Part shown: piece after piece, positions 209 through 6,055 of the stretch
Layout: each line of letters starts with the position of its first letter
Numbering within the stretch: position 1 is the first letter of the stretch
Source of the DNA: Cylindrotheca closterium
Lineage: Eukaryota > Bacillariophyta > Bacillariophyceae > Bacillariales > Bacillariaceae
Reading direction: 5' to 3'
DNA: 64,000 bases
Assembly: GCA_933822405.4 (NCBI GenBank)
Contig: CAKOGP040002092.1
Coordinates: forward strand, 18,102 to 82,101
Translations under genes and position numbers: made by a program
The notes under the pieces: model-generated
What the model was told of the DNA's origin: nothing
Database searches by the model: none
Seen by the model: the letters and a program-made list of their open reading frames with translations, nothing else

Positions 209-3200
209 TCATACAAAGCCGAAATCCTGCTCCGCCACGTGCTTATTAGAATGACCATGCTGTTCACGCGAAAACGAAGTCCTCTGCCTGTCACTCAAAG
301 TCCTGCTTGATCTTCGTTCCGACCTCCCAGTTCTGTTGTGCGTATCGTCGTGAAGAGATGAATAATATCTTGGAGAGAAATCTCTCGACCTGCTGCTACG
401 TTCTTCCCAGTGTGGAGAGCGACTGAATGGTCGCTCTATTTCTTCTCGTTTTCTGGGCGAAGGGCGGCTGGTGGTGGAATTTTGCATGGATGTGTTCCGC
501 TTGTCATATACAAAGTCATTGGGACTCTTATTATCGTACCGAACATCAGAACGAGTATTCAAGCCAAACTGCTGCTCATTATTCTCATCATCTGGACGAG
601 TCTGAGCTTTGACGTCCAACTTATTCTTGCTCTTGGATGGTGGTCCACCGTAGCTCTCCGACACAAACTCCATCTGATGCTTCTTGTTTCCAGTGATGGC
701 CGTGATCATGTCATTTGAAATCTTGGACTGATGCATCTCATGGGCAAGCTCGGGAGAGCCACAAAAAGCCAAAAGCGAGTAGGATCTCTTACTCTCACTG
801 TCAATCATGCGGAGCGTATGGTCCTGAATCCAACGTGGAATATCCAAGCGACCATAGGTGATCTTGATCAATCCTCTAGATCCACCAAACTCTTTGTCCA
901 ACAAGGCACAGGCAGTTGCATCCGGATCAGTGACATGGATCGAAACATGACAGACTTTTGGGGCATTCTGGTAGCCCCAGGCAGCAACCAGCTCGTGGTA
1001 ATGCGAGATGATGTCTGGAAGAATTTTGGATGCTTGTGACGCAGATCGGGTTGTCCAAATCATTTCGAGACAGTTCAAATTGGCGGCAGCAGAACCAGCA
1101 GCAGCAGCATAGGCATCAACGTGCTTCTTCCAAGTCTTATGGCGAGGACTGACAGCACGACTCCATAGACGCAAGGTCATGTATCCGTGGAAGAGAGAAG
1201 CAAGGATGATTTCGTCAGGGCTGAGCTTGGCTCCTCGGATTTCGTAGACAATGAACCAATACCAGTCAAATAAAAAAGCAACGGCGCAGAAGACAAGATC
1301 GATGTAGTTGTAAATCGAAGTACAATCCCAGACACATACGGACACAAATCCAAAAACTGTTTGAAAGAGGACTGTCATGACTTCAAGTGCAACGAACATC
1401 TCCGGTGCAAGATCGACTTCCGTGGTGTTCCAAGAAATAGTCAATCCGAGGACGACCACCCCAAAGACGGGAGAAAAGCAGAGCAAGACGATACCATAGA
1501 GTGAGCGAGTGGATTGGCCGGCCTTTTTTCTGAGTCGGGCCATGTTGCTTCGGATATCCGACAAGTTGGAGAGTCCATCGTGTCGGATAAGGTCCTCTCG
1601 GATGGAAGCTTCGAGTTGCTCTTGCTTGCTCATGACGAGTTTTTGTTTGGATCGGCAGCTGACAACAACCTTCTGCGCAAAGGATCCCTTTCTCTTGTCC
1701 ATTTCAAATTGGACTCTGTTGAGTCGTATCTTGCGGCGTTCCAGCTCCTGGAGGTATCTTTTTGGATCGAGGGATAGCATCTTTTGGACGTGCTCCTTGA
1801 AGAGACTCAAGACGGGGACGATGCCAGTACCTGACCCGAGGGACAGAATATGAGAATACTCATCCGTATTTGCGAGACTGGTTCCGTAAGGGCCCATGAT
1901 TTCGACATACTTGCGAATGTTTCTGACTGGATTGCCTTTCTCATCTGCCAGCATATCCCAAAGCCTGGTAGTCCATGAGCTCTTACTTTCATGGATTCCA
2001 ATGTAAAACTCGAGTTCTTCTGAGTTTGGACTGGAAGCAATCGAAAAAGGATGCCAATGGTTATCAATCTCGTTGATTCGCAAGCAGGCGTATTGTCCAG
2101 CTTTGAACTGAAAGAGGATTGGCTTCTTGAGTTTGAGAATGATCATTCGAGATCCGTTGGTACCTGCCACAGTGGATGAACCTGTTACTTTGGTCCGGTA
2201 TTTGTGGTTCAAATGCATGGCCGCACGGTCGCAAAAGTAGAACAACAAGGTTGAAGTGAACCATTTGAAAGTCTGGCTTCTTTCCTTTCCGGTTCGTGCT
2301 TCGACATCCAAAGTATGAGCAATGGTCACAAAGTACATGATGAAGACGGCATGGTGAAGGGCGTAGAAGATCTCGTAGGGAATGGAATGCCGAAAGTAAG
2401 ATGTGAACCCAACCAGAAGCAAGAACGCCAAGATACAGTATCCAGTTATCATGATTTCTTCCGTGAACTTTTCGCAAAAGGCTTGCTCGCCATCGGAACA
2501 GAGTAGCCCAAAGAAGACAAAGAAGAAAATGACGGCCCAAACGACAATGATGATCATAGTGTATCCGAGGTGAATGTGCATTCGGAGGCTACGGTTCAAG
2601 GGCAAGATTTTACCCAAGACGGAATCACATAGTCTGCTGATGGTATAACGTGCCATGGTCAATGGAATCAAGGACATTTGGAATAGAATGGCGTGCATGG
2701 AACCAAATTCCAAAGCAGGTGTAATGATTTTCCACCAGTATCGGTTGGCAGCTTCCGGAACGGCAGCGAACTGGTCATCAAGCTTTCGAATTGCAAAGTG
2801 GGCTGATTGGAATGAGTGAATGGGATGATGAGCGATCGAGGAATTGTGTTGTAATATCCTTTGTGGGATATCTATACTTACACCAAATGATCAAAGTGCT
2901 CACGAAATGAACCAAGAAGAATACCATCAGTTTTCTCTCGGCATACAAGTATGTGATTAGGTGGTAGACTTTGGATGGAGGCAATAATTGGCCAGCCTTT
3001 TGAAACAACGACCGAGTATGCGAAACCGATTTGTCGACACCCATCTCGCTATCGGTGCTATTCGCTTTGTCAAAGACCTGTTGGGATTGGAACATTGTCA
3101 TGAAATTGTTTGGGATGCGTTGCTGTGGAGGTTCTTCGTGGACGCAACAACCACCAGTTTCATACTGAAAGACGTAATTAGGACTTGGTCTTTCTTCCTT

Positions 3201-3260
3201 GGTATGCTCTGACGATATGTTTTGCCGGCTAGCCCTCGTTTCGTTTGCAATGTAATGCAT
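209..3260 (-). CDS. NADPH oxidase / ferric reductase-like flavocytochrome with inserted voltage-sensor-like domain
   Basis: Two exons, complement(join(209..2802,2882..3260)), about 990 residues. The 79 nt intron has a GTAAGT donor and CAG acceptor and restores a family-typical run into YWWKIITP and LEFGSMHAI. The family moves electrons from NADPH through FAD and two b-type haems across a membrane, to oxygen or ferric iron. Visible parts in order: a first membrane span near residue 110; several more with candidate haem His in HIHLGYT and YALHHAVF; the FAD motif HPFSIASSP (about 377); the NADPH loop LGSGTG (about 445); a four-span insert (about 560-680); then the rest of the NADPH domain with LEMIWTTRSAS (about 705) and FCGSPE (about 806). 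The last 140 residues are Ser/Arg-rich and look disordered. No EF hands were seen. The start ATG at 3260 is the first in frame; an ATG at 3397 lies in another frame, so a further 5' exon is possible. Oxidase versus ferric reductase cannot be settled here. Confidence 0.88.
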
Positions 3261-3669: not shown

Positions 3670-6055
3670 ATGCCAAATAAAGTAGCGCTAATTGTATGTT
3701 GGGTAATTCTTGTCGTAGCAGCAGCCGTTGGAATTGGTTTGGGCGTTGATTGGGGTTCGGAAGCAATAGTCCCTGCAGCTTCCGCATCATCCAAGGCTGT
3801 TGACACAGCCAATGGAACCACCTTAACCGTAGAACCACCAAGCATTGCCGTTGGCGGCCGACCTACATTTTTGCCTACTAACGAGCCATTTAGCCAGCCC
3901 ACTAGCGTGCCGACGGATGAGCCATCTGCCAGTCCCTCCGACATGCCTTCGTCTCTCGCACCCACCACTCTACCTGGAGCCACTCCTTTGATTGTTGGAA
4001 ACAGTACCCAAGTGTCCATATCTCTTCGCAGTTTTACAGACGAAGGTGGGAGCACTGTTCGGTCCAAATTTACGTATTCCATTGAAGAGCCAGGGGCTTC
4101 CTATGTCTCCATTCACTTTGCCAGTTTTGATTTCAGCAAAGAGTGCAGCATGGAAATTAGTGATGCAGACGGTGTGCTGGTTGCCGAGTATACTCTTCAA
4201 GGAAGACGCAATTTAGGTAGCTTTTGGGCCCGTCACGTCGAAGGAGATACTTTGAGTCTACTAGTCTTCTGTTTACTGGGAGCTGGTGAGAATAAGGTTG
4301 ATTTTGAAATTGATGAAGTTGTCACTGGCTTGCCAGATGAGCTTATTGTGGAAGATATTCTTGATGACAGTGCCAATCGTCCTTCAATCGGTGATGGTGC
4401 CCTAAACACTACTCGCTATCTGAGGGCTCAAGACCTCTTTCCCATCCAAAATCATCGAGAAATGGCACGGTGTGGAAGGGACGATTCGACCAATGCCAAA
4501 TGCTACATGGATTCCCATCCTACTGAATATGATTTGGGCAAGGCGATTTCCCGCCTTAAAATTGCTGGCCGCGGAACTTGCACGGGTTGGTTGGTCGGTC
4601 CCAACAATCTTCTCATGACCAATCACCATTGCATCCGAGGTGTCGATGACATGGAGAAGACAGACTTTCAGTTCATGGCCGAGGGTGCCAGTTGCAATGT
4701 CGGTAAAGGGTCCACGGCGGGATATGATGTCTATGATGGCATTGAAATTGTCAACTTTTCCTATCAAAAAGACTATGCCTTGATTCGGCTCGATGGAGAT
4801 CCGGCTTCCAAATATGGGTGAGTTCGACTTGCTGTTTGCTGCCTTGTTTCCTGTTGCGCTGATTGCTAACCACAATATGATGCTGAACTAATCTTGATTT
4901 TGTAGGTATTTGGACATTGACGATCGGGTCGCCACAGTGGGTGAAACCATTTTCATTCCAGGTCATCCTGCTGGAAGGGCCAAGCAATTTTCAATTATGG
5001 ATACTCAATCCAATTCGGGTGCCAGTGATGGCAGATGTGCCATCTTGGATGTTGGCGGTGACAGTTGTGGTTATTCCACACGTTACAATTCCATTCAATA
5101 TACTTGCGATACCTTGGGTGGTTCGTCTGGTTCTCCAGTCATCTCGGTGGATACTGGCAAAGTGCTTGGATTACATCATTGCGGAGCTATCGCCAATACC
5201 AATTGCCGAGATGGCAACTTAGCCGTTCCCATGGAAGGACCTGGTATCTTTCAGGAAATTAAAGAATTTCTAGAGGCCCCAATCCCCAAAACTCCCTTTC
5301 CATCCACTTCTCCACCCACGACGTCGCCGCCAACACTCCAGCCCAGTTTCTTGCCCACCACTTCTGGAACGGCACCTCCTACCGTCGAAGTGACTTCTAG
5401 ATGTTTTGCTCCAAAAATGAAAATTGAAATTCAATTGGACAATTATGCGGCCGAGACGAGATGGGAACTCTGGCAAACGGATCCACCCAGAATGATCACC
5501 GGGGGAGGTGGATACGAGAACAATGCGCTGGTTGAAGAAGAACATTGCTTGGCCGATGATGGATTGCATTATTTGAGATTCTTTGATGATTTTGGAGATG
5601 GCTTTTGCTGTGGCAAAGGAAATGGTTACTACAAGATATGGTACCAAGGCTTTCAAATCTATCATAACAATGGTGCAATTGGCAATTTCACGGAACTTGA
5701 GATTAGTCCCGACCAAGTTTGTTTGGATGTGCTGATGCATTTGACTCTCCAGACCGATCGATATCCTGTGGAGACAACTTGGGAACTGTTGGACGATAGC
5801 AGTGGTCTTGTGTTGGCTTCAGGAGGACCGTACTTTGAACGATATCAATGGGTAGAAGAGTCCATTTGTGGGACGAGTTTTGGTTCCTACACCTTCACAA
5901 TCAGGGATTCCTTCAAGGATGGCTTATCCGCTGGCGGCTCCTTTACTTTGACGAGAGATAATGAGGTGAAGATCGAGAGCGATGGTGTCTTTGAAAGGTT
6001 TGTTTCCTATTCAATTCCTAGCCTTGGACCCGCTGAAATCATCAATCAAGGTTGA
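3670..6055 (+). CDS. Membrane-anchored trypsin-like serine protease with C-terminal tandem modules
   Basis: Two exons, join(3670..4817,4906..6055), 765 residues. The 88 nt intron starts GTGAGT and ends TTTTGTAG and joins the frame exactly. A hydrophobic span at residues 5-25 is a signal peptide or anchor, so the protein faces outside. A Pro/Thr/Ser linker (about 60-100) and a beta-rich segment with a CLLGAGENK stretch come before the protease domain. The catalytic triad is visible: TNHHC (His 319 or 320), KDYALIRL (Asp 368) and GGSSGSPV (Ser 457). A second PT-rich linker follows, then two related modules of about 100 residues: the first has LDNYAAETRWEL, DDFGDGFCCG and Cys, the second TDRYPVETTWELL and RDSFKDGLSAGG. 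A secreted or surface endopeptidase is very likely; its substrate is unknown. Confidence 0.9.

Follow-up and report, generated by a model that had tools for sequence, protein, structure and literature searches.

NADPH oxidases (NOXs) with additional membrane helices are known from several groups of algae. According to passages of four papers, which cover these cases between them (PMC1940245, PMC3591440, PMC9524095, PMC5016757), red algal NOX has four extra helices at the place considered here, and such helices are also found in Phaeodactylum and in preNOX proteins from red algae, stramenopiles, and Viridiplantae. The relevant passage on Chlamydomonas describes it as lacking them (PMC5016757), and another passage interprets the helices as an anchor, with reference to Herve 2006 (PMC9524095). 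In excerpts of further papers, four of the six NOXs of Chattonella antiqua have 11 predicted spans, with a related many-span type in Karenia (PMC6685483), and a NOX of Seminavis has six helices and an EF-hand (PMC8027222); the latter is a second kind of diatom NOX, distinct from the insert-bearing one. We analyzed a 64,000-nucleotide stretch of the diatom Cylindrotheca closterium (contig CAKOGP040002092.1; hereafter the window, in whose coordinates positions are given). Near its start, a two-exon gene on the minus strand encodes an NADPH-oxidase-type protein of 990 residues, in which four membrane helices at about residues 555-690 interrupt the NADPH domain, as seen in both the sequence and the predicted structure. 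The architecture is already known, and the insert is shared among algae rather than unique to C. closterium. Newly found here are an invariant charged pair within the insert, Asp628 and Arg671, and a second clade of oxidases whose insert has an acid in its first helix and a second arginine in its fourth.

In the AlphaFold2 models the insert is placed between the helix after LGSGTG and a strand starting at residue 704, and its predicted helices span residues 541-586, 593-617, 623-649, and 655-677. The second half of the long first helix is S1 (residues about 562-584 by AlphaFold2 and hydropathy; positions 1430-1498, on the minus strand like all features of this gene). The other three follow AlphaFold2: S2 (residues 593-617; 1331-1405), S3 (623-649; 1235-1315), which carries Asp628 and Asp639, and S4 (655-677; 1151-1219), which carries Arg671. 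The insert modelled alone has a mean predicted local distance difference test score (pLDDT) of 86.4, and in the full-length model every ten-residue block across residues 541-680 has a pLDDT of at least 91. The initial annotation of the window had described a four-span, Hv1-like voltage-sensor module inside the NADPH domain. The four-span insert and the placement of its landmarks are borne out (LSLGSGTG from residue 446, YIDLVFC from 626, TLRLWSRAV from 669, and LEMIWTTRSAS from 705), and the structure predicted for the whole protein contains the four insert helices; the lack of a four-helix bundle, named there as a refuting outcome, does not appear to be what the model gives.

Among 109 aligned sequences, lysine plus arginine number 3.74 on average N-terminal of the insert and 3.33 C-terminal of it; the predicted outer loops have means of 0.43 and 0.95. 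Because both flanks are rich in these residues and the outer loops are poor, the flanking charge supports a cytosolic location of both insert ends. The short inner loop, with a mean of 0.33, is not positive and is uninformative on topology. The topology would fit that of a voltage sensor, to which the insert bears a loose likeness; the reading put forward in the initial annotation is partly supported overall.

The alignment retained 109 of 113 matches, the C. closterium protein included, with four left out, and all of them span the insert. The organism-named hits are all diatoms (Cylindrotheca, Seminavis, Grammatophora, Ditylum, Nitzschia, and others). We therefore use "diatom-type" purely as a label of this analysis, most members being metagenome proteins; some are MMETSP transcript records and are therefore expressed. 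The initial annotation had proposed a survey of algal oxidases for the insert; it is present in these 109 sequences and reported for the algae of the papers above. In the C. closterium insert the four charged residues named in the initial annotation are present, namely Asp628 and Asp639 eleven residues apart in S3, and Arg671 and Arg675 in S4. Conservation exceeds what chance would give: Asp628 and Arg671 are invariant (109/109), Asp639 is 86% conserved, and position 675 is arginine in only 18% of the alignment.

The second clade (P0111-P0126) consists of metagenomic NOXs with the same insert. It is known here from metagenome sources only, and its oxidases are probably algal. Some of its clusters are large, with hundreds of members (402 sequences for P0116), and a protein search started from P0125 gave three proteins. 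Diatom-type and second-clade inserts match each other in hhalign at 88 to 93% probability. A full residue recount covered 108 diatom-type and 16 second-clade inserts. The S3 residue Asp628 is present in every one (108/108 and 16/16, together 124/124), and Arg671 in all 108 diatom-type and 15 of the 16 second-clade inserts, the remaining one having asparagine. Asp639 is found in 93 of the 108 and in none of the 16. At S1 position 574 the diatom type has glycine (103), serine (4), or alanine (1), with no acid anywhere in residues 571-578 in all 108, whereas the second clade has aspartate (10) or glutamate (6). S4 position 668 is basic in 0/108 diatom-type inserts and arginine in 16/16 of the second clade. 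Position 607 in S2 is occupied by glutamine (95), histidine (9), glutamate (3), or tyrosine (1) in the diatom type, and by histidine (10), leucine (3), valine (2), or threonine (1), hence never by glutamate, in the 16 others. The second clade thus combines an S1 acid, the S3 aspartate, and an S4 RxxR, and the diatom type has the S3 aspartate and a single S4 arginine. If the S1 acid and Arg668 were partners, they would differ together between the clades, which is a single two-clade contrast and not repeated covariation. For the C. closterium protein, the initial annotation had suggested that the S1 aspartate and S2 glutamate of Hv1 are replaced by about Phe and Gln. The glutamine stands, since Gln607 fits the S2 position by its spacing to Asp628; the S1 position, assigned through the alignment with the second clade, is Gly574, adjoining the guessed phenylalanine.

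The rest of the protein has the layout of the NADPH oxidase superfamily, with a single chain that combines a ferric-reductase membrane domain with domains for FAD and NADPH. The Ferric_reduct match (residues 191-286; 2324-2611) represents the heme-carrying membrane part, and is followed by the FAD-binding domain (residues 343-435; 1877-2155; Pfam PF08022, E 2.2e-12). The first NADPH sub-site, LSLGSGTG (residues 446-453; 1823-1846), lies in a weak NAD_binding_6 match (residues 442-482, E 0.12, under the family cut-off). C-terminal of the insert, the second part of the NADPH domain extends from residue 704 to about 850 (632-1072); beta strands resume at residues 704-711 in the full-length model, and the alignment to NOX structures reaches residue 844.

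The superfamily is characterized by four canonical heme histidines, two each in the third and fifth transmembrane helices (TM3 and TM5), and one of them is absent here. His276 and His289 of TM5 are conserved in 76/76 relatives and His202 of TM3 in 73/74, and no histidine occurs in the segment of residues 206-228, where the second TM3 ligand is expected, in 74/74. His163 of TM2, conserved in 63/66 relatives, may stand in for it as outer heme ligand. A Thr-Gly in TM4 is found in 74/76 relatives and, together with the absent TM3 histidine, is a trait of the NoxD/preNOX class; here we assume that the Thr-Gly and the TM3 segment correspond to the NOX2 numbering (His-119). Two more traits of this class are the four additional helices separating the NADPH sub-regions and the lack of an EF-hand, of which a Pfam search with E values up to 10 detected none in the 990 residues. 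As green algal preNOX likewise lack the second TM3 histidine in the passage describing them (PMC3591440), its absence does not bar this class. The assignment follows published class features, with no hit named as red algal. Compared by their descriptions, the algal NoxD/preNOX of Chondrus crispus, Porphyra, Cyanidioschyzon, and Phaeodactylum share the NOX-type core, the absence of EF-hands, and the four extra helices; the passages concerned mention neither a conserved Asp/Arg nor a likeness to voltage sensors. Among the papers listed by searches of the open-licence PMC literature, we recognized none that reads algal NOX helices as a voltage sensor.

The relation to Hv1 proposed in the initial annotation fares poorly. 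Ion_trans matches none of 30 inserts (11 second-clade and 19 diatom-type, that of C. closterium included), and among the 24 places listed by an Ion_trans search of the C. closterium genome none is inside this oxidase gene. The C. closterium insert alone matches no Pfam family at E up to 10, with HMMER filters dropping most matches above about 0.1, and profiles of both insert sets, run against 177,635 PDB sequences, match none up to an E value of 10. In hhalign, the inserts score 8.9 to 11.9 against 12 voltage sensors of the same genome and 12.7 to 14.6 against an Hv1/VSP (voltage-sensing phosphatase) profile, and the controls, which are reversed or unrelated sequences, score 8.3 to 13.7 and 11.1 to 15.5, respectively. 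The Hv1 profile is found by other voltage sensors at 34.8% probability and by the inserts at less than 1%. Leave-one-out controls recovered 11 of the 12 voltage sensors at a probability of at least 50%, a test made easier by the profile's 12 sequences coming from one genome and including some close paralogues. The one missed was Hv1 (0.5%), whose profile consists of four S2-S4 fragments. The hhalign test is therefore weakest exactly for Hv1, and its negative is less decisive and not the last word. With the ferric-reductase helices of the proteins that carry it, the diatom-type insert scores 18.6 and 18.9 (2 to 2.5% probability), above all its scores with voltage-sensor profiles; we read this as a probable shared hydrophobic make-up. 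Membership in Hv1 by sequence is thus unsupported by Pfam, PDB profiles, and hhalign, and a search result without any voltage-sensor or Ion_trans match is what the initial annotation had named beforehand as refuting it.

Several single hits were set aside. The best PDB match of the insert is PkwA (phmmer, E 1.7e-4), presumably a WD-repeat protein, and is ascribed to chance through repeated TxRLW letters; the LRLW likeness to Hv1 S4 on which the initial annotation drew is weak evidence, as PkwA matches through the same letters. A TMEM258 match (E 0.23) was likewise dismissed as chance, and so were single-member Pfam matches of the inserts down to E 0.004, which hit a different family each time.

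Residue by residue, the resemblance to Hv1 is partial. Each has four helices, a pair of S3 acids at a spacing of eleven residues, and an S4 arginine two residues ahead of a tryptophan. Unlike Hv1, the insert has the S3 aspartate (Asp628) with neither S1 acid nor S2 glutamate (Gly574 and Gln607), and instead of three S4 arginines spaced by three it has one (Arg671), or two in the second clade (Arg668 and Arg671). C. closterium also keeps a separate Hv1-like gene (L028 1462-1794, minus strand) with the S4 motif RVWRFVR. Searched as a single sequence against the PDB, this piece matches 3wkv (named Ion channel; E 1.3e-6), which we take to be an Hv1 chimera, Ci-VSP (7.2e-5), and 5oqk (Voltage-gated hydrogen channel 1; 0.0014). 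By eye, its S1 is on an upstream piece beyond an intron. Weak structural matches of the insert model include the sensor domains of Ci-VSP and of the exchanger SLC9C1, and none of those listed is Hv1 by name. These two proteins are similar in joining a four-helix membrane module to a catalytic or transport part. They differ in having full S4 charge ladders and in that the module is a separate domain, not within a nucleotide-binding fold.

It is moderately likely, in our view, that the protein is an algal NoxD/preNOX-class NADPH oxidase without EF-hands whose insert would tether the NADPH lobe to the membrane. The heme core, FAD domain, and NADPH domain would pass electrons outward, and the tethered lobe would have its docking under the heme core fixed or regulated; dehydrogenase docking at this place is a regulated step in other NOXs. 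The bundle would most likely be held by a buried salt bridge between Asp628 and Arg671. Because the S1 acid, the S2 glutamate, and further S4 charges are missing, the insert in this protein is probably neither a voltage sensor nor a proton channel. Some points weigh against this account. Superoxide output by this oxidase would be expected rather than assured, given the missing TM3 histidine; a plain anchor is not obviously in need of an invariant intramembrane charged pair; and the charges of the second clade, with an acid in S1 and two spaced arginines in S4, are easier to reconcile with descent from a sensor-like module than with a neutral anchor.

The charge contrast between the clades keeps alive a decayed voltage-sensor origin, in which an algal oxidase captured a voltage-sensor domain that is now non-sensing or weakly sensing, like channels whose S1-S4 domains lost charges. 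In this scenario, which we regard as unlikely, the second clade retains the S1 acid, S3 aspartate, and two S4 arginines and could sense voltage or carry protons, and in diatoms the S1 acid and the outer arginine disappeared together, leaving only the inner Asp-Arg pair. A working sensor that gates the oxidase, as in the voltage-sensing phosphatase, would be compatible with the fold and with invariant Arg671 and Asp628. Established voltage sensors carry several spaced charges, however, and the diatom type lacks the S1 acid, has a single conserved charge in S4, and carries glutamate at the S2 position in only 3/108 (Q 95, H 9, Y 1), which makes this highly improbable; gating by membrane potential, as the initial annotation had envisaged, is accordingly unsupported for this protein. 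A built-in proton path that compensates for the charge transferred by the enzyme is also hardly to be expected. In its favor are the charged residues inside the membrane, the resemblance of the second clade's S1 acid, S3 aspartate, and S4 arginines to the Hv1 set, and the charge compensation that phagocyte oxidases need according to a passage of PMC10377628, but the S1 acid is absent from 108/108 diatom-type inserts and the genome has its separate Hv1-like gene.

Many algae release superoxide, and their NOXs are candidates for its source, as stated in part of PMC5016757. The insert was previously set aside as an anchor; the invariant charged pair now names the residues to change, and the fuller Hv1-like charge set names the clade to express, so that a direct tie of an oxidase to voltage or protons becomes testable. 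The second clade is the place where the voltage-sensor reading is best tested.

The gene comprises exon 1 (2882-3260; residues 1 to about 126), a 79-base GT-AG intron (2803-2881), and exon 2 (209-2802), which reaches the stop codon at 211-209. Its spliced 990-residue product is identical to the public C. closterium protein record P0001. FAD_binding_8 matches nine places in the genome; among the eight examined by their longest frames, three have the insert (L003, L005, which is this gene, and L006) and five are without it. The paralogue L007 is ferric-reductase-like and by eye has two hydrophobic spans in its NADPH region, similar to the plant/protist reductases described in a passage of PMC3591440. 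These protist/plant ferric reductases (ppFRE) resemble the present oxidase in having extra helices inside the NADPH-binding domain and differ in lying outside the NOX group; L007 is one possible case in this genome. The neighboring gene (3670-6055, plus strand), in two open frames, resembles by eye a secreted trypsin-type serine protease with the motifs TNHHC and GGSSGSPV.
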